A DNA stretch of 48,799 bases from Helicobacteraceae bacterium (GTDB lineage: Bacteria; Campylobacterota; Campylobacteria; Campylobacterales; Sulfurimonadaceae). The notes beneath the pieces are model-generated. The model saw only the letters and a list, made by a program, of their open reading frames with translations, searched no databases and was not told the DNA's origin. How positions within the stretch are numbered: position 1 is the first letter of the stretch; the number at the start of each line of letters is the position of its first letter. The translations under genes and the position numbers were made by a program. Below, piece after piece: positions 20,440 to 48,799 of this stretch. The stretch covers positions 1-48,799 of the forward strand of contig JALWGC010000004.1 of assembly GCA_027038835.1 (NCBI GenBank), read 5' to 3'.

Positions 20440-20527
20440 GGACAGGTGAGAGAGTGGTCGAATCTGCTCGCCTGGAACGCGAGTGTGCTTCACGGCACCG
20501 TGGGTTCGAATCCCACCCTGTCCACCA
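20440..20527 (+). tRNA. tRNA-Ser (anticodon GGA)
   Basis: Acceptor stem GGACAGG pairs with CCTGTCC. The anticodon arm CTCGC-CTGGAAC-GCGAG carries GGA (reads UCC/UCU serine codons). The long variable arm (TGTGCTTCACGGCACC) is typical of class II tRNA-Ser, and the T arm GTGGGTTCGAATCCCAC is perfect. CCA is encoded at 20525-20527. The discriminator base appears to be A (20524), whereas bacterial tRNA-Ser normally has G. The integrase gene follows 221 nt downstream, so this 3' end is the likely phage attachment site. Confidence 0.95.
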
Positions 20528-20748: not shown

Positions 20749-21939
20749 ATGGCAAGAGTTGTTGTACCTCTTACGGATGCGAAAATCAAAAAAGCGAAAC
20801 CCAAAAATAAAGTATTTTATCTTCGAGACGGAGGTGGGCTAAATCTTCAAGTCAATCCAAGCGGAAGCAAAATTTGGATGATAGACTATGTAAACCCTAT
20901 CACGAAAAAAAGAAGCACTAAAACGATAGGGCATTATCCATATGTATCTCTAAAGGAAGCAAGAGAAGAGAGAGATGCTTTTAAGGCAAGCGCAAAAGAC
21001 AAGCGCACTTTTACAAAAGCAAAAAATAAAAACATAACCTTTGGAGAAGTGGCAAACCTATTTTTTGAAAAAATGGCTAAAGAGAAGTCGGAGCGATATA
21101 CAGTAACGGAAAAAGGCAGATACAATATGCACTTAAAAAGCATAGCGAAGCTGCCTATCGCAGAAGTAGATAAAAATGCAGTGCTCGACATAGCGAAGCT
21201 TATACAAGCAAAAGGAAACATAGAGCAAGGTCATAGAGTATTTGCACTGGCAAGACGCATACTCGACTTTGCAGTAGCGAACGACATCGTCGAGACAAAT
21301 GTTTTGTTTGGAGTGCAAACACGAGTAGTGCTGCAAACGCCAAGCAAGAAGAACAACTATGCTCACATTACAGACAAAAAAGAGTTTGCTCAACTGCTTC
21401 GAGACATAGACAACTACTATGGCTCTATTCTTGTTAAAATAGCTTTACAGATAGCCCCTTATGTGTTTGTTCGACCTGCCAACTTGCGTATGATGGAGTG
21501 GAGCGAGATAGACTTCGAGGAGCGCACTTGGACGATACCGGCAGAAAAGATGAAGATGGATAACGCCCACATAGTACCGCTTACGGATAGAGTGATAGAA
21601 CTGCTCAAACAAACGGAAGAGTTCAAGCAGAGTAAATACGTTTTTTACTCTCCAACTACTACCTTGAAGCCTTTGAGTGAAAATGCAGTCAACCAAGCGC
21701 TTCAAAGATTAGGTTACAAAGATAAAATGACCGGACACGGCTTTAGACATACCGCATCGACACTACTGCACGAAAACATACACATTCACGGCATACCAAG
21801 CGAAGTAATAGAGTTGCAGCTTGCACATACCGATAGAAACAGCATTAGAGCGGTTTACAACAAAGCAAAATTTCTTGACTTGAGATTTAAGCTTATGGAG
21901 TGGTGGAGTGATTATGTTGATGAGTTGCGAAAACCTTAA
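20749..21939 (+). CDS. int: Tyrosine integrase, P4 type
   Basis: 396 residues. The N-terminal arm-binding domain (DUF4102: LTDAKIKKAKPKNKVFYLRDGGGLNLQV read in two parts, then WMIDYVNP and GHYPYVSLKEAR) is followed by a core-binding domain and the catalytic domain. Catalytic residues: arginine in YVFVRPANLRMMEWSEIDF, HGFRHTAST (H-x-x-R), the histidine in LQLAHTDRNSIRAVYNKA and the tyrosine in the same segment. It would carry out integration and excision at the adjacent tRNA-Ser. The AGGAG site sits 6 nt before the ATG. Confidence 0.95.
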   Translation: MARVVVPLTDAKIKKAKPKNKVFYLRDGGGLNLQVNPSGSKIWMIDYVNPITKKRSTKTIGHYPYVSLKEAREERDAFKASAKDKRTFTKAKNKNITFGEVANLFFEKMAKEKSERYTVTEKGRYNMHLKSIAKLPIAEVDKNAVLDIAKLIQAKGNIEQGHRVFALARRILDFAVANDIVETNVLFGVQTRVVLQTPSKKNNYAHITDKKEFAQLLRDIDNYYGSILVKIALQIAPYVFVRPANLRMMEWSEIDFEERTWTIPAEKMKMDNAHIVPLTDRVIELLKQTEEFKQSKYVFYSPTTTLKPLSENAVNQALQRLGYKDKMTGHGFRHTASTLLHENIHIHGIPSEVIELQLAHTDRNSIRAVYNKAKFLDLRFKLMEWWSDYVDELRKP

Positions 21940-41274: not shown

Positions 41275-41646
41275 TCAGCTCACGTTCAGATTGTTCGTTT
41301 TGTAGATGGAGATGACCTTTTCAGCCTTTTTCTCGTAGTAGTCCTTGTTCTTGAACGACAAATAGGCGCAGATAAAGAACACGACCGCCGTTTGCAAGTC
41401 GGTATCTATGTCGAGTTCGTCATCGTCGCCGCCGATATTTGGCTTGCGTACATAAAGTGTGTCGTCAAGAAGCTTGCGAAACACATCCGTCGCACTATCA
41501 TCAACTTCGTTTAGAAGTTTCAGCGGCTCACATCGTGTAGCCACTTCGTAGATAGCGGACTTCACGATGAGGTCGTCTATCTCCGCTTTGGAGTTGTCGC
41601 CTTGTAGGAACACCCCAGCAAGGGTTTTCACCTCACCAAGCGTCAT
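41275..41646 (-). CDS. Head-tail connector-like protein
   Basis: 123 residues: MTLGEVKTLAGVFLQGDNSK, then helices KAEIDDLIVKSAIYEVATRC and LDIDTDLQTAVVFFICAYLS, the size and helical make-up of gp6/gp11-type connectors encoded just after capsid genes. The start at 41646 shares TAATG with the capsid stop, so it is coupled to it. Confidence 0.55.
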   Translation of the reverse strand: MTLGEVKTLAGVFLQGDNSKAEIDDLIVKSAIYEVATRCEPLKLLNEVDDSATDVFRKLLDDTLYVRKPNIGGDDDELDIDTDLQTAVVFFICAYLSFKNKDYYEKKAEKVISIYKTNNLNVS

Positions 41647-42572
41647 TACTTGATACCCTCTCCGCAAGCGAAGTAGTCGGCGTTTTGCACCTCGAGCGTA
41701 AGGTCGGTGTAGTAGCGACCGAACCTCGCCGTTTTGGAGGTTGGAGGCTCTGTGAACTCCGTATCCGTATAGAACATAATGCGCGCTTCGTTGAGCTTGC
41801 CGACAAGCACTTTGTCCGAGAGCTTGGACGTGTTGAAGAGTCTGTGCATCTTGACCTTGATTGCACCGAAGTCCGTCTCGAGTTCATAAAGCGTCGGATC
41901 GAACCCGTTGTCGTTTTTGAGATTTCTAAAATACTGGTCTCCGGCAAACTTGTTGATAGCCTTTTTCACATTCGTACCGCATACAAGCATAAAGCTCTCA
42001 TCCTCTATGCCGCCGCGCTCCCAAACAGGCTGTAGGATTTCGCTCAGTTTGTCGTAAGTGAACTCTGTAGCGTTGCCGTTGCCGTCTTTGAAGTCCTGTC
42101 TGTGCGCAGTCGGTATATACTTGAAGATTCCAGCCATTTTTGAAGCCTGTGTGTCGCTTCCGACTGTGTAGTTATCGAAAACACTTGCGTTATGCAGTCC
42201 AAGCAGCGCATACTCAAGGTCTTTGGCGTGTTCCGCTCCGACTTTTCCGACGCGGTACTCCCACTCTTTTTTACCGTAACGTGCGTTGTCAAGCTCTTTA
42301 CGAGACAAACCAAACTCATTTTTGATGATTTGTGTAACGTTATCGACCATCTGTTTCGTATCGACCGTGTTTTCGGCGATGTCGGTTATCTCGAGGTTCG
42401 CGTTTTCCTGCGCGTCTCTGTATCTGTCGATAAACCAACTATGCTTCGGTGCGTTCACTTTCCCGCGTCCAAACCACTCCAAAAAAGGTGTTTTCTTGGC
42501 ACCTTGCAAGATGATGGCGTCGAGTATCGAGGGCTTCTGATTGACCTTGTTGTTGTAGGTTGTCAATGCCAT
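41646..42572 (-). CDS. Major capsid protein, SU10/DUF5309 type
   Basis: 308 residues. The start MALTTYNNKVNQKPSILDAI, the TPFLEWFGRGKVNAPKHSWF segment, then NVTQIIKNEFGLSRKELDNA with YGKKEWEYRVGKVGAEHAKDLEYALL in the following helix are typical of HK97-fold capsid proteins of the SU10 group. Later VCGTNVKKAINKFAG and FGRYYTDLTLEVQN. A GGGAG site lies upstream, and the 21-nt element (copy A) at 42626-42646 is the likely control point. It is preceded by a plus-strand insertion that separates it from the scaffold gene. Confidence 0.85.
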   Translation of the reverse strand: MALTTYNNKVNQKPSILDAIILQGAKKTPFLEWFGRGKVNAPKHSWFIDRYRDAQENANLEITDIAENTVDTKQMVDNVTQIIKNEFGLSRKELDNARYGKKEWEYRVGKVGAEHAKDLEYALLGLHNASVFDNYTVGSDTQASKMAGIFKYIPTAHRQDFKDGNGNATEFTYDKLSEILQPVWERGGIEDESFMLVCGTNVKKAINKFAGDQYFRNLKNDNGFDPTLYELETDFGAIKVKMHRLFNTSKLSDKVLVGKLNEARIMFYTDTEFTEPPTSKTARFGRYYTDLTLEVQNADYFACGEGIK

Positions 42573-42703: not shown

Positions 42704-42714
42704 TGTGCTATAAT
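42704..42714 (+). promoter_or_regulatory. Promoter of the small RNA (TGTGCTATAAT)
   Basis: Extended -10 TGTGCTATAAT, identical over 11 bases to the promoter at 21940-21950. Start predicted near 42721, matching the first base before hairpin 1 of the small RNA. Divergent from the capsid gene element. Confidence 0.65.
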
Positions 42715-42720
42715 TACATT

Positions 42721-42823
42721 ATCAAGACTTGGCGGTCTTGTGTGTGTATGTCTAAAGTATGCGGGAACATAACCTTTAGGCGTCCAAGCCCCATCAGCCG
42801 TTGTGGTTGGTGGGGCTTTTTTT
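42721..42823 (+). ncRNA. Small RNA, candidate antitoxin RNA to the 26-residue peptide gene
   Basis: About 103 nt with three hairpins. Hairpin 1: CAAGAC-ttggcg-GTCTTG (42723-42740). Hairpin 2: GTCTAAAG (42750-42757) with CTTTAGGC (42774-42781), continued by TATG/CATA so that CGGGAA is the apical loop. Hairpin 3 is the terminator (42786-42823). The sequence ATGCGGGAACAT (42759-42770) is the exact reverse complement of the peptide gene's first 12 bases (42888-42899); AACCTTT (42771-42777), GGC and GTC continue the pairing to AAAGGTT, GCC and GAC upstream of that start. Total about 25 pairs covering ribosome binding site and start codon. No open frame of note. Confidence 0.7.
42786..42823 (+). 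terminator. Strong intrinsic terminator of the small RNA
   Basis: AAGCCCCATCAGCC (42786-42799), loop GTTGT, GGTTGGTGGGGCTT (42805-42818): 14 pairs with two G-U, then T run to 42823. Any read-through would produce the peptide mRNA. The ATGGGG at 42858-42863 downstream could pair with CCCCAT of the first arm, giving a weak alternative fold. Confidence 0.85.
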
Positions 42824-42887
42824 CGTTATGGTCTATGCTTTTGTAGATGGGTGGGGTATGGGGTCAGACTGCCAAAAAGGTTGAAAA

Positions 42888-42968
42888 ATGTTCCCGCATT
42901 TGGATATCCACACCGTAGGTTATCTTGTAATTGCGTTGATCTACTTGATTTTCGCACTCAAGCACTAA
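42888..42968 (+). CDS. 26-residue membrane peptide, candidate type I toxin
   Basis: Begins MFPHLDIHTVGYLVIALIYL and ends IFALKH: one hydrophobic helix of about 16 residues bounded by a short polar N-terminus and a basic tail, the layout of type I toxins (TisB, Ibs, Fst, ZorO) that depolarise membranes. AAAAAGG at 42874-42880 gives a good ribosome binding site 7 nt before the ATG. The site and the start codon are the region matched by the upstream small RNA. A TATGCT at 42834-42839 could be its own -10; otherwise it is read by terminator read-through. No homologue recognised. Confidence 0.6.
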   Translation: MFPHLDIHTVGYLVIALIYLIFALKH

Positions 42969-42973
42969 CCTAC

Positions 42974-43001
42974 ACTCGGGGAGCTTAGCCAACTCCCTGA
43001 G
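42974..43001. terminator. Hairpin between the peptide gene and the scaffold gene
   Basis: ACTCGGGGAG, loop CTTAGCCAA-type, CTCCCTGAGT: ten pairs with one G-U. It lies 5 nt after the peptide stop on the plus strand and directly after the scaffold stop on the minus strand. No T run on either strand, so it may stabilise a 3' end rather than terminate transcription. Confidence 0.45.
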
Positions 43002-43003
43002 TT

Positions 43004-43576
43004 CTACGAGATGCTTGAGAGTATGAAGCTTCCAAGCTCCGCTTCGTTTGCCTGACCTTTTTTTATCCTCTCTTCGAGTTCACTGTTTTGGTCGGCATCC
43101 CCGTTGCCATCGCCGTCGGTTATCTTGTCAGGTTCTTCCTGCGGTTTTATCGAAGCCTGCACCGCTTTGTAGGCTATCTCCATAGCGTCCGGGTTTGTCA
43201 GCATCGCATCGGCAAGCTGCGGATTGATCGCTTTGACCTTTTCTATCTCTTTCTCCACCGCATCGAAAGGGATGTCCGGGTATTTCGCACCTACTGCCGA
43301 TTTTGTCTTTTCGATTTCAAGCTCTTTCATCTTCTCCTGCATCTGCGCAAGCGCCTCTTGCGTCTGGTCGATGCCGAGCATCTTTTTCGCCTCTTCTATA
43401 TCAGGCTCTCCTTGCGGTTCTGGCTGCTGCGGTTGTTGCGGCTGTGTAGGCATAGGCTGCTGTGGCGGCATCATTTGTTGCTGCTGCATTGCCATCATCT
43501 GCTCCGGCGTCATCTGCGGCTCTTGTCCGCCCTCGATTTCCTGATATAGTGTCGGGTCTATTTGTGGCTGTGGCAT
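43004..43576 (-). CDS. Scaffold-like head assembly protein
   Basis: 190 residues beginning MPQPQIDPTLYQEIEGGQEP, then glutamine/proline/methionine-rich (MMAMQQQQMMPPQQPMPT), then a charged helical part (LAQMQEKMKELEIEKTKSAV, EKEIEKVKAINPQLADAM) and an acidic end. Location between portal and capsid genes, disorder and charged coiled coils fit a scaffold. The ATG at 43576 follows GGAGGAAAAG and overlaps the stop upstream. Confidence 0.6.
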   Translation of the reverse strand: MPQPQIDPTLYQEIEGGQEPQMTPEQMMAMQQQQMMPPQQPMPTQPQQPQQPEPQGEPDIEEAKKMLGIDQTQEALAQMQEKMKELEIEKTKSAVGAKYPDIPFDAVEKEIEKVKAINPQLADAMLTNPDAMEIAYKAVQASIKPQEEPDKITDGDGNGDADQNSELEERIKKGQANEAELGSFILSSIS

Positions 43577-43577
43577 T

Positions 43578-43937
43578 TTACTTTTCCTCCTCTTGTGCGA
43601 TTTCATACCAATCCGCAGTTACCGCGTCGTCGTGCGACGGCGTGTACGGGATGGTGATTTTTCCTTTTACAAGCGAGAGCTTGGTCTCCCCGCGAAGTAC
43701 CGTAACATACACTTCGCCAATCTGCTTGCTCCAACCTCTGCGTCTGAACTTCGCGCCTCTTTGCGCTTTTTCGTAAACCTCGACGATTGATAGGTCGTGT
43801 TGAACCTGCTCTTTACTTTCATCTCTGTTTGTAGTTTCATCTTTTGGCACTCCATCCTCTTCTTTTACTTCCGGTGTTTGTGTTTCCATGACTTTTTCCT
43901 CTTCTTTTACTTCATTCTGCGTTTTTACTTTAGCCAT
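43578..43937 (-). CDS. Phage protein with Tad2-like (DUF2829-like) C-terminal domain
   Basis: 119 residues. The first 50 are charged and disordered. From about residue 50: LSIVEVYEKAQRGAKFRRRG, W, then VYVTVLRGETKLSLV and IPYTPSHDDAVTADWYEI. The pattern of a helix ending in GxKxRRxGW and a closing DDxxxxDWYEI is that of the DUF2829/Tad2 fold, where Tad2 proteins bind the cyclic nucleotide made by Thoeris defence. Similar domains may also serve other functions, and the placement among head genes is unusual. Start at 43937 follows AAAGGAGGAGAACG. Confidence 0.5.
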   Translation of the reverse strand: MAKVKTQNEVKEEEKVMETQTPEVKEEDGVPKDETTNRDESKEQVQHDLSIVEVYEKAQRGAKFRRRGWSKQIGEVYVTVLRGETKLSLVKGKITIPYTPSHDDAVTADWYEIAQEEEK

Positions 43938-45745: not shown

Positions 45746-46200
45746 AATCCCATCTCCCTCTTTATTCTCTGTGAGCTTCTTTGGCTTATCCCAATCGCGC
45801 CTGCGACCTTTTTCGTCTCCATCCCAGAGCGCAGAAGCTCTTTTGCAAGCAGTCTCTTTATCTCGCTTTTATGCACGACAAGATTGCGCGGCATCTCGTC
45901 GCAGTAACGCTTTATATCTTCGTATGGAAGATATTTGAACGTGTTATTGATACCCCGTGTGAGTCTCGCTTTTATCTTCTGCTTGACGACACCGCGTCGA
46001 AGCGTAGTCATCTCGCATATCTCGTCTATCGTGTAGCCGTTTTTGTGCAGAAGCTGTATAAGGTATAAAGATGCTTTCTTCTTGTTGAAAGAGAGCGGTA
46101 TCTTGTCGCTCTTCTCTTTTTTCAGCATCGCTATAAAGCTTGCAGGCATCTCCTTTACAAGCTTCGAGACAAAAAACTTATTGACACTTTTTAGCTCCAC
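45742..46200 (-). CDS. Helix-turn-helix protein between terminase and portal
   Basis: 152 residues, GTG start with GGAGG upstream, overlapping the terminase stop by 10 nt. Two helix-turn-helix-like parts: NGYTIDEICEMTTLRRGVVK in the middle and METKKVAGAIGISQRSSQRI at the C-terminus. Candidate for the small terminase subunit placed after the large one, or a late-gene regulator. I cannot decide between these. Confidence 0.6.
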   Translation of the reverse strand: MELKSVNKFFVSKLVKEMPASFIAMLKKEKSDKIPLSFNKKKASLYLIQLLHKNGYTIDEICEMTTLRRGVVKQKIKARLTRGINNTFKYLPYEDIKRYCDEMPRNLVVHKSEIKRLLAKELLRSGMETKKVAGAIGISQRSSQRIKREMGL

Positions 46201-48581
46201 GCCGCACCTCCGTATGTTCTTGCCGTCGTATCGTCTCCGTATGGAGTTTCGTCATACTCATCGTCGTACTCATCCTGCACATAGAAAAACTCCTCGCAAC
46301 TCATAGCCATAGCGTCCGCCACGTCGGGAGAGCGTCCAAGCTTGTTCTTTATCTCACGCTTCTTCGTGATAGCCATCTCCTGCTTTTCGGTGTAGTAGTA
46401 GGTGATGGCTCCAAGCTCTCCGACCATCTCGTCATCGTCTGGTATCTTCGCATCCTCGATAATCTGCTTGAGCTTGAAAAACCACTCCGCACGCTTTCGG
46501 TAGTAGATCTCTTTCTCTATGGCGTTGTAGGATGCTTTCACTCCAACTACCATATCGAGACCGACATTGTGGCAAGCGGAAACAAGCCCAGCACCGACAC
46601 CGACCGCATCGACGAAGATGTATTTTGGCTTGATTTTTGCATTGGAGTATTCAAGGAGGAGCATCCCTTTGAGCTGCTCTTGGTTGAAGCCTCTAAAGCG
46701 TTTGATAGAGTGAAAGTGTTTCCCAATTCGCTTCACGAGTACCGAAGTATCATCCCCCTCGTCCGCCACATCCAAAGCCCAGACCTCCGCACCGCTCGTA
46801 TCGACTTCGCCCAGCGGTCTGGCTATGGCATCCTCTATCTCAGCAACAGTAAAGACTGCATTGGAAGTAGCTCTTGGAAACTCTCCAAGCACACGCACAC
46901 GGTAAACGTCACTGTCTTCACCGTATTTTTTCTTGTACTGCTCTATCGCCTTTTTGCTGACGTTTTCGCTCTCTTCGGTATTGAACGTAAAGCGCGTCCA
47001 TTGCCAAGCGTTTTTGTGAAAAGCGTCGTAGAAATACCCCTCCGTCCTTGTCGGGTTTCCAGTAAGCATCGCAAAGGAGTTCTCCCCAGTCAAAGCCCCC
47101 TCGACGACTTCATAGATGGCAAGCGGCACACCCGAAGCCTCGTCTATCAAAAAGTAGAGATTCGTAGCGTGAAAGCCTTGAAGCGCGTCAGGATTTTCTC
47201 TCCTTGCCGTTCTTGCAACCGCAAACGCGTCTGTTTCGGTATTGACAACCTTTTCCGTCTGAACGACAATTCTATCTTTGAGTAAAGATGGCAAAGTATT
47301 CCACCATTTCCGCACCTCCGGTATAAGTATCTCGGTAAGCTGTGGAGCCGATGGCGCAGTCATAGGCACTTTACAATCCTTTTTGAAACTCAAAGCCCAA
47401 AGAATTATCCAAGACATAAGTGTCGATTTACCGCTGTTTCTCGTAACGATAAAATCTCCACTTAAAAACCGATGGTTTCCACTGATTGTAAAACCGTAAT
47501 ACTCATCGACTCCAAGAGGTTTTACGCTTTTTATTCCAAAATTTAGCTCTACTCTTTGCTCTTTTCCTGTCTTTTTAGCTTTTTTTCTCTCAACTCTGCA
47601 CGGTATTTGCCACACATTCCTCGTTATATTTACTCGATAGTAAATGCCTTTGCTTCCTGTATTCGTACAAACTTTTTCAACCTCTTTGATGTTTGCGTGA
47701 ATACCAAGTGAGCGGCATAGATGAACGATGTCGTTTGCAAGTGTTTTAGATTTTTGAATTATCTCATAGCTGTAACTCTCGTTTTTGCTTTTTAGATACC
47801 CGTCAGTATCGAGCAAACCGGCAAGGAGTTCCAATCTTTGCTCTTTTGAGGCTGTTTTGTATTCAAACGGTATATGCTTGTTCCCAAGTAGATTGTTTTT
47901 GCGTAAAGTTGCTTGAAGCTCCGTAATCGTGTATCTTGCGCAACTGCTTTTTTTCTCTCTTACATTTTTTACATCAAAATTTTCAACTATCAAGGCATCT
48001 TTGTCGGCAATAGTTAATTGCCCTGCATTCGTAGCTCCGTCTCCAAGCCAAACACCGAGCAAATAAGGGTCGATAGGCAGCTCTTTTTTTGGAAAATTTA
48101 CGCCTTTTTTGAATATTGCGTGAGTTCTTTTTTTTCTATCGCTCCAATTAAGCCAATCTTTTACTTCAACCTCGACAATATCACCTCTTTTTTGTCTGCC
48201 GTGTGTTTGAGTTGCCACCAAAACAAGCTTATGAGAAGCGTTGTAAATATGCGTATCGCCACTATTGAACTCAAATTCATACATCTCCTCTTTGCCTCTT
48301 TTGAGTTCAAGCACGGCGCGTGGAGCACCATCATCACCCATAAGAATATCGCCGACTTTTACATCTTCGACATTCACGATAGAGCCGTCATAACACATAA
48401 CCTTATGCCCTTTGGCAAAACAACCGTGACCGCTCTTGATAGCTATCTTATTAGCCCCCTCATCTATGGCAACCAAAACATCCATCTGCTGCTTTGTCGG
48501 CTTGGCACGAAGTATTCTGCGCACAAAAAACACGATGGACTTCGCGGCGGCACTAATGAGAATTGCGTCTTTTTCGGTCAT
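46191..48581 (-). CDS. Terminase large subunit, interrupted by an intein
   Basis: 796 residues with a 329-residue intein; the spliced product would have 467. N-terminal extein ends KSGHG and the C-terminal extein resumes SGKSTLMSWIILW, so splicing restores Walker A GHGSGKST. Walker B is LYFLIDEASGV; coupling motif TGNPTRTEG; RuvC-like nuclease residues in VWALDVADEGDDTSVL, YIFVDAVGVGAG and SPDVADAMAMS. It packages DNA into the head and cuts it. Start at 48581: TAGGA lies 6 nt upstream and the previous gene ends at 48583. Confidence 0.93.
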   Translation of the reverse strand: MTEKDAILISAAAKSIVFFVRRILRAKPTKQQMDVLVAIDEGANKIAIKSGHGCFAKGHKVMCYDGSIVNVEDVKVGDILMGDDGAPRAVLELKRGKEEMYEFEFNSGDTHIYNASHKLVLVATQTHGRQKRGDIVEVEVKDWLNWSDRKKRTHAIFKKGVNFPKKELPIDPYLLGVWLGDGATNAGQLTIADKDALIVENFDVKNVREKKSSCARYTITELQATLRKNNLLGNKHIPFEYKTASKEQRLELLAGLLDTDGYLKSKNESYSYEIIQKSKTLANDIVHLCRSLGIHANIKEVEKVCTNTGSKGIYYRVNITRNVWQIPCRVERKKAKKTGKEQRVELNFGIKSVKPLGVDEYYGFTISGNHRFLSGDFIVTRNSGKSTLMSWIILWALSFKKDCKVPMTAPSAPQLTEILIPEVRKWWNTLPSLLKDRIVVQTEKVVNTETDAFAVARTARRENPDALQGFHATNLYFLIDEASGVPLAIYEVVEGALTGENSFAMLTGNPTRTEGYFYDAFHKNAWQWTRFTFNTEESENVSKKAIEQYKKKYGEDSDVYRVRVLGEFPRATSNAVFTVAEIEDAIARPLGEVDTSGAEVWALDVADEGDDTSVLVKRIGKHFHSIKRFRGFNQEQLKGMLLLEYSNAKIKPKYIFVDAVGVGAGLVSACHNVGLDMVVGVKASYNAIEKEIYYRKRAEWFFKLKQIIEDAKIPDDDEMVGELGAITYYYTEKQEMAITKKREIKNKLGRSPDVADAMAMSCEEFFYVQDEYDDEYDETPYGDDTTARTYGGAAWS
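47436..48422 (-). mobile_element. Intein with LAGLIDADG homing endonuclease domain
   Basis: 329 residues. Block A begins with Cys1 (CFAKGHKVMCYDG, GDILMGDDG), block B is GDTHIYNASHKLVLV, and the C-terminal blocks are YYGFTISGNHRFLSGDF with IVTRN at the end; the next residue is Ser. Two LAGLIDADG helices are seen in LLGVWLGDGA and LELLAGLLDTDGYL. The asparagine is preceded by Arg rather than the usual His. The insertion is in the P-loop codons of the terminase, a conserved target for inteins. Confidence 0.92.
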
Positions 48582-48582
48582 T

Positions 48583-48799
48583 TCATATCCTACAAAAGCA
48601 GTCTTTAAGAGGCTCATCGGAAAAATCAAATAGCGTTCCTTGTCTATCCGCTTTTTCAAACTCTTTTTCCAAATCAGCGCAAGTTCGATGATTATTAAAC
48701 CAATATGGATTTTTTACGTTTCCAATCTCAAGCAATCTTTGCTCGATATTTTTCATATATTCCCAAGTTTTTGGAAAGTGTTTCCACACATTAAACCAA
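48583..48799 (-). CDS. C-terminal part of an unknown phage gene (runs off the right edge)
   Basis: The frame is open to the edge of the window: WFNVWKHFPKTWEYMKNIEQ and then NPYWFNNHRTCADLEKEFEK, ending FSDEPLKDCFCRI. I do not recognise the family from this piece. It ends 1 nt before the terminase ATG and its last codons contain the terminase ribosome binding site, so the genes are coupled. A GTG at 48789 exists, but there is no stop before it. Confidence 0.55.
   Translation of the reverse strand, partial: WFNVWKHFPKTWEYMKNIEQRLLEIGNVKNPYWFNNHRTCADLEKEFEKADRQGTLFDFSDEPLKDCFCRI

Follow-up and report, generated by a model that had tools for sequence, protein, structure and literature searches.

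The sequence analysed here is a 48,799-nt stretch of contig JALWGC010000004.1 from a Helicobacteraceae bacterium (GCA_027038835.1), referred to below as the window. A compact module is located at 42704-43001 on the + strand, within a 431-bp gap between an SU10-type major capsid gene (41646-42572, - strand) and the gene that follows in the head operon (43004-43606, - strand). The head genes are encoded on the strand opposite to the module. The original prediction, made from the sequence alone, had placed the module inside phage head genes, and this held on both sides of the gap. SU10-type portal and terminase genes are found farther along, beyond the 43004-43606 gene. The other end of the phage block carries a tRNA (20440-20524) followed by a tyrosine integrase (20749-21939), which mark the boundary of a prophage that extends to the contig end. 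As a separate observation, the gene for the large terminase subunit (46191-48659, - strand) is interrupted near the Walker A motif by an intein that consists of a Hint domain with a LAGLIDADG homing endonuclease.

The module has a one-strand order of promoter, three-hairpin RNA, terminator, G-rich spacer, ribosome binding site and short hydrophobic open reading frame (ORF). The RNA gene is upstream of the toxin-like gene on the same strand, and the two are 64 nt apart. Every element listed in the original prediction is present in the sequence where it had been placed, which confirms the underlying observation. The individual features are as follows.

42704-42714, + strand: promoter sequence TGTGCTATAAT (from sequence)
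42706-42714, + strand: extended -10 element TGC-TATAAT of the putative antitoxin RNA promoter (from sequence; equivalent in nearly all relatives)
42721-42823, + strand: putative antitoxin (antisense) RNA of ~103 nt, its start inferred 7 nt past the -10 (fold z, covariation)
42723-42740, + strand: hairpin 1, CAAGACTTGGCGGTCTTG (fold; stem double changes AU:15/GC:2 and GC:15/AU:2)
42745-42786, + strand: hairpin 2, presenting the antisense loop CGGGAA at 42762-42767 (fold, loop-loop test)
42759-42770, + strand: antisense segment A, complementary to the start codon region of the putative toxin (exact 12-nt complement; co-varies in relatives)
42771-42784, + strand: antisense segment B, AACCTTTAGGCGTC, complementary to the ribosome binding site region (sequence, pairing analysis)
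about 42786-42823, + strand: intrinsic terminator of the RNA, made up of hairpin 3 and a T-run (terminator prediction, fold, covariation)
42847-42868, + strand: G-rich spacer element ATGGGTGGGGTATGGGGTCAGA, common to both toxin classes (alignment, terminator-spacer model)
42867-42882, + strand: target of segment B, reaching through the ribosome binding site AAAGG (sequence, pairing analysis)
42888-42968, + strand: toxin-like peptide gene, 26 aa, MFPHLDIHTVGYLVIALIYLIFALKH, targeted by segment A over its first 12 nt (ORF, homologues, selection)
42975-43001, + strand: inverted repeat 3' of the ORF, a probable mRNA terminator (from sequence; equivalent hairpin kept and covarying in relatives)

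The RNA (42721-42823) is predicted to fold into three hairpins with an energy of -44.1 kcal/mol (z -4.87), and none of 200 shuffled sequences is equally stable. The 12-nt complement between 42759-42770 and 42888-42899 is the sole zero-mismatch match in the window, and an exact match of this length was absent from all 3,000 dinucleotide shuffles of both regions (mean 6.2). The full duplex between sRNA positions 42741-42785 and mRNA positions 42866-42914 has a predicted energy of about -47 to -48 kcal/mol. Shuffled duplexes average -24.8 (sd 4.0), and none of 1,000 reaches the energy of the real duplex. Further pairs proposed in the original prediction, at AAAGGTT (42876-42882), GCC (42871-42873) and GAC (42867-42869), were confirmed, as was the position of CGGGAA in the apical loop of hairpin 2. 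Its proposal that the gene start folds as an ATG-TTCCCG-CAT hairpin held in part: the hairpin is predicted in a 51-nt context, but a 40-nt context gives a different minimum-energy fold.

Cognate covariation among class-1 relatives

Related modules, which we term class 1, were identified in other genomes. A blastn search located the entire module at 79% identity in a genome of the same genus, adjoining an integrase. In this copy the end of the peptide is nearly unchanged (MHEFINIHTVGYLVIAMIYLIFAFKR) and the first codons are different, and the RNA loop has changed in a way that is complementary to those codons (TTCGTGCATAA vs TTATGCACGAA). Peptide searches gave more copies, mainly in Sulfurimonas and then in Sulfurospirillum, another epsilonproteobacterial genome and two more families of the order. 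The number of distinct peptide-bearing class-1 copies read is 26, drawn from several Campylobacterota genera and leaving out G211 (cut by a contig end) and G752. The parallel orientation is present in every copy read, and all copies read far enough upstream share the one-strand order, including the antisense hairpin and the terminal hairpin after the ORF. The terminator is strictly kept, with a 13-15 bp stem and a T-run, and the distance from terminator to ATG is about 55-70 nt. Nearly all relatives have a TATAAT-like -10 in the corresponding position, in most cases preceded by TGn; G458 has no clear -10.

We compared each RNA in silico with its own mRNA start and with every other mRNA start across 23 class-1 modules. 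The cognate duplexes sum to -952 kcal/mol, while re-paired sets have a mean of -549 (sd 27, best -675) and none of 20,000 reaches the cognate value. The longest exact complement averages 11.0 nt for cognate and 6.6 nt for non-cognate combinations. The re-pairing controls were not corrected for relatedness. They include close relatives and paralogues from the same genome, however, and the cognate signal should therefore be weakened by them rather than created. Three distinct members found later lie outside the 23-module test. Two rank their own mRNA first, and the third, G603b, pairs weakly (own mRNA rank 6/28).

The structure of the RNA is also conserved, and hairpins 1 and 3 show pair-keeping double changes at 10 of their 19 pairs across 18 relatives. 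Sequence complementarity with family-wide cognate covariation, together with conservation of RNA structure, is thus shown. The original prediction stated that it would be refuted if the complementary segments lacked compensatory change, or if homologous loci lacked a peptide frame; both segments change together across relatives, and the frame is present at those loci.

The same comparison bears on how pairing might begin. Complementarity between the loop of RNA hairpin 2 and the cognate mRNA start hairpin scores 89, against 54 (sd 4.4) for re-paired sets (0/20,000). The start-codon hairpin itself is only modestly stable across the family (mean z -1.06). A loop-loop kissing start, as had been suggested, is made plausible by this family-wide cognate complementarity; the mRNA hairpin of the window's own module is weak.

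The class-1 peptide frame is under purifying selection at the protein level. Its pN/pS is 0.26, compared with 0.89 and 1.59 when read one or two bases out of frame (16 codons, 76 informative pairs). Residues H8, Y12, I15, A16 and Y19 are invariant, and the mean hydropathy of the 26-aa peptide is 2.28 over residues 7-24. The peptide has no Pfam family above cut-off and no NCBIfam, PHROG or PDB match, and searches of INPHARED phage, plasmid records and viral contigs gave no match. An Rfam covariance-model search of the window at the gathering threshold returned only the tRNA and left the RNA of the module unmatched.

A covariance model of the class-1 RNA (R1) was used to search for copies that lack the peptide, and nine strong copies were found. 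Four of these bear deletion scars: in G239, G195 and G113 the last codons of the deleted peptide remain, and in G198 the spacer joins the terminal hairpin directly. All four scarred copies retain promoter, hairpins and terminator. Searches with class-1 peptides, whose scope excludes class-2 peptides, found no class-1 peptide without its RNA. The preferential loss of peptide over RNA is therefore shown, and the presence of RNA-only copies without peptide-only copies fits a harmful peptide with an RNA antidote. One-sided loss is the right kind of evidence for toxicity and falls short of proof, being indirect and unaccompanied by toxicity data.

Several class-1 loci depart from the standard arrangement. 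In G194a (L029, about 325-590) the spacer and the toxin start are split apart by a ~270-bp insert bounded by 25-bp inverted ends (TAAGAGAACACAAATAACTTCATAG), and despite the insert the RNA still matches the toxin start over 14 nt. The class-1 copy of G213 (L025, 1501-1570) has decayed to a remnant, with promoter and hairpin 1 joined to the terminator's 3' arm. In another genus, TATAATTACATAAACAAGACGTGGCGGTCGTG (L003, 1501-1534), upstream of a pyrB-like gene, resembles the module promoter and hairpin 1 (E 3.6e-5); the rest of the module is absent there.

A second peptide class and the shared spacer

Some weak R1 matches, together with a model of the terminator plus spacer (R2), revealed a second class of module. 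Class 2 comprises 32 loci with an identical order of elements and an unrelated hydrophobic peptide, mostly of 18-20 aa (e.g. MLLRVIILLLLLGYLTKLF), with a pN/pS of 0.27. The class-2 RNA is unlike that of class 1 in its 5' half, yet it too pairs with its own mRNA around the ribosome binding site and start. Over 29 testable loci, which were cut out automatically, the cognate sum is -1110 compared with -833 (sd 22) after re-pairing, and none of 20,000 re-pairings reaches it. A few members, such as G153:C132 and G167:C232, rank low in cognate pairing.

The spacer element (consensus ATGGTTGGGTTATGGGGTTAGA) is nearly invariant in the class-1 modules and the four class-2 modules that make up alignment A5, and other class-2 loci carry a related G-rich spacer. 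This near-invariance is unexplained: the element is non-coding and has no obvious partner, yet the modules that share it carry different toxins. A G-quadruplex was considered and set aside, with just three G-runs present. A strong spacer promoter for the putative toxin was likewise rejected, as the best -10-like hexamers score 4-6 and their position is not constant. The promoter of the RNA is near consensus, with an extended -10 in most copies, and the spacer holds only weaker -10-like hexamers.

Comparison with known toxin-antitoxin systems

The module meets two features of type I systems, namely an RNA complementary to the toxin mRNA and a short hydrophobic peptide that is truly encoded. The ZorO-OrzO, ShoB-OhsC and TisB-IstR-1 systems of E. 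coli likewise combine a short hydrophobic membrane peptide with a separate sRNA gene that is adjacent and non-overlapping. In these systems the sRNA is divergent from the toxin gene (PMC3919570, PMC8309996). OrzO has limited complementarity of 18 nt to its toxin mRNA, and paralogues differ in a short specificity segment (PMC3919570). OrzO pairs within the 5' UTR, ahead of the ribosome binding site (PMC3919570, PMC8309996). The RNA described here is instead parallel and upstream, with a terminator ahead of the gene, and its two pairing blocks span the ribosome binding site and the start codon. No relation in sequence to ZorO-OrzO, ShoB-OhsC or TisB-IstR-1 was found.

AapA/IsoA is a known type I system of Campylobacterota. 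As described for Helicobacter pylori, it resembles the present modules in its phylum, its small membrane peptide, its structured RNAs and its several loci per genome. IsoA is encoded antisense to the AapA gene and overlaps it, whereas the present RNA gene does not overlap the toxin gene. The AapA mRNA contains a 5'-3' long-distance interaction (PMC6733600). A simple test for an equivalent interaction, between the spacer and the 3' hairpin, gave no signal (mean z 0.06 over 20 loci), and only this one pairing was examined. Class-2 peptides resemble Ibs of the Ibs-Sib system of E. coli in length and hydrophobicity, a likeness that does not rest on an alignment. Sib is antisense-overlapping, and the present layout is parallel instead.

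The layout contrast with AapA/IsoA drawn in the original prediction held, but the closer layout parallel, with type III toxin-antitoxin systems, had been missed. ToxIN, CptIN, TenpIN and AbiQ share the one-strand layout of promoter, RNA antitoxin, intrinsic terminator and toxin gene, and in ToxIN a read-through of about 10% sets the RNA excess (PMC4147584). Their RNA is a repeat array that binds an RNase toxin protein, whereas the present RNA has three different hairpins, pairs with mRNA and is coupled to a 26-aa helix. The module works like type I and matches type III in layout but not in chemistry or toxin, and we therefore regard it as a variant of type I. A review lists 'divergent, convergent or parallel' as possible orientations of adjacent type I antitoxins (PMC8167048). 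A parallel orientation is therefore already allowed for, and the layout is rare rather than unheard of. No described parallel type I family was found in the literature searched, which did not include the T1TAdb paper.

Proposed mechanism, rival explanations and candidate roles

Overall, the module most likely represents a type I toxin-antitoxin family that is new and has an unusual, parallel layout. The original reading of a same-strand tandem of antitoxin RNA and toxin is supported to this extent, with transcription, action in trans, the block of translation and toxicity all inferred. In the proposed mechanism, a strong promoter would produce an RNA of ~103 nt that stops at its own terminator. 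Through the loop of hairpin 2 and the segment after it, this RNA would pair with the adjacent mRNA over the ribosome binding site and start codon and block its translation, with a first contact that is probably loop to loop. The product of the mRNA would be a 26-aa single-helix membrane peptide. Rare read-through past the terminator, a weak promoter in the spacer, or the two together would supply the toxin mRNA, leaving the RNA in excess of the mRNA. Since the RNA promoter is strong and the spacer hexamers are weak, read-through may be the source, as in ToxIN (PMC4147584). Loss of the prophage, or a drop in the RNA, would then allow the peptide to be made and to damage the membrane. A role in maintaining the prophage is inferred.

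As a rival explanation, the RNA could be merely the 5' leader of one long mRNA, sequestering the ribosome binding site in cis with the terminator as an attenuator, in which case a separate antitoxin RNA would be irrelevant. The same strand and order, the single clear promoter and the lack of a strong spacer -10 are consistent with such a leader, and pairing in cis would yield identical covariation. We nevertheless consider it unlikely. With so strong and strictly kept a terminator (13-15 bp stem, T-run) most transcripts should stop before the gene, and a pure leader does not explain why promoter-RNA-terminator units persist after the gene has been deleted. A 5' hairpin and a loop presenting antisense sequence are, moreover, typical of trans-acting RNAs. 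It is similarly doubtful that the peptide is a non-toxic small membrane protein under tight antisense control, for instance one that modulates a host membrane complex or acts in phage exclusion. Regulatory roles are common among small single-helix proteins, and the invariant H, Y, I, A, Y pattern is more specific than hydrophobicity alone requires. Against this stand the nine RNA-only remnants with no peptide-only locus, the very tight antisense cover of the start, and the presence of another, unrelated peptide at the equivalent position, which is more in keeping with interchangeable toxins than with one regulator.

The remaining alternatives are weaker. A type III system, with an RNA that binds protein rather than mRNA, would match the gene order of RNA, terminator and toxin (PMC4147584, PMC8167048). 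It is very improbable, as the RNA has no tandem repeats, the product is a 26-aa membrane-helix peptide and not an RNase, and the feature that co-varies is base complementarity to the mRNA start. Chance complementarity next to a random short ORF can be all but dismissed. Any two regions of this kind will often show complementarity over stretches of up to 7 nt, but the shuffles of both regions (0/3,000 and 0/1,000) argue against chance, and covariation and coding selection in relatives refute it.

Within the favoured type I reading, a read-through transcript would contain both pairing partners, which counts against that reading, and this would add silencing in cis. How the toxin is translated from such a transcript would then need explaining, processing being one option. 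A bolder reading, which we could as readily see fail as hold, is that these modules form a Campylobacterota superfamily joining type I chemistry (RNA-mRNA pairing) to a type III operon design. Such a superfamily would have a chassis of terminator and G-rich spacer common to its members, two or more unrelated toxin peptides, an RNA:toxin ratio set by read-through from one promoter, and a locus-specific lock-and-key antisense code.

The genomic settings of the modules are varied. Copies elsewhere adjoin head-connector genes of another phage (G168), an integrase (G002) or an anti-repressor gene (G547). A small phage-type HTH gene is often present near class-1 modules, in at least five genomes (flanks of L026, L032, L056, L031 and L066), and belongs to phrog_8898 in both cases tested (G002, G124). 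Many copies are chromosomal, some of them between housekeeping genes, and prophage maintenance is therefore not a general role. Prophage stabilisation, exclusion of other phages and selfish spread are all possible, and the present data discriminate none of them.

The analysis adds two toxin-like peptide families and one putative RNA antitoxin family that are absent from the databases searched. The parallel, terminator-separated layout is a conserved design and no mere curiosity, and the RNA-only remnants allow toxicity to be assayed through evolution. Natural cognate pairs number in the dozens, frequently with several in one genome, and provide a ready set for studying how antisense pairs diverge without cross-talk.

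One class-2 locus has an arrangement of its own. In G158:C10 (L127, 26659-27387), three class-2 modules are arranged head to tail in about 700 bp.
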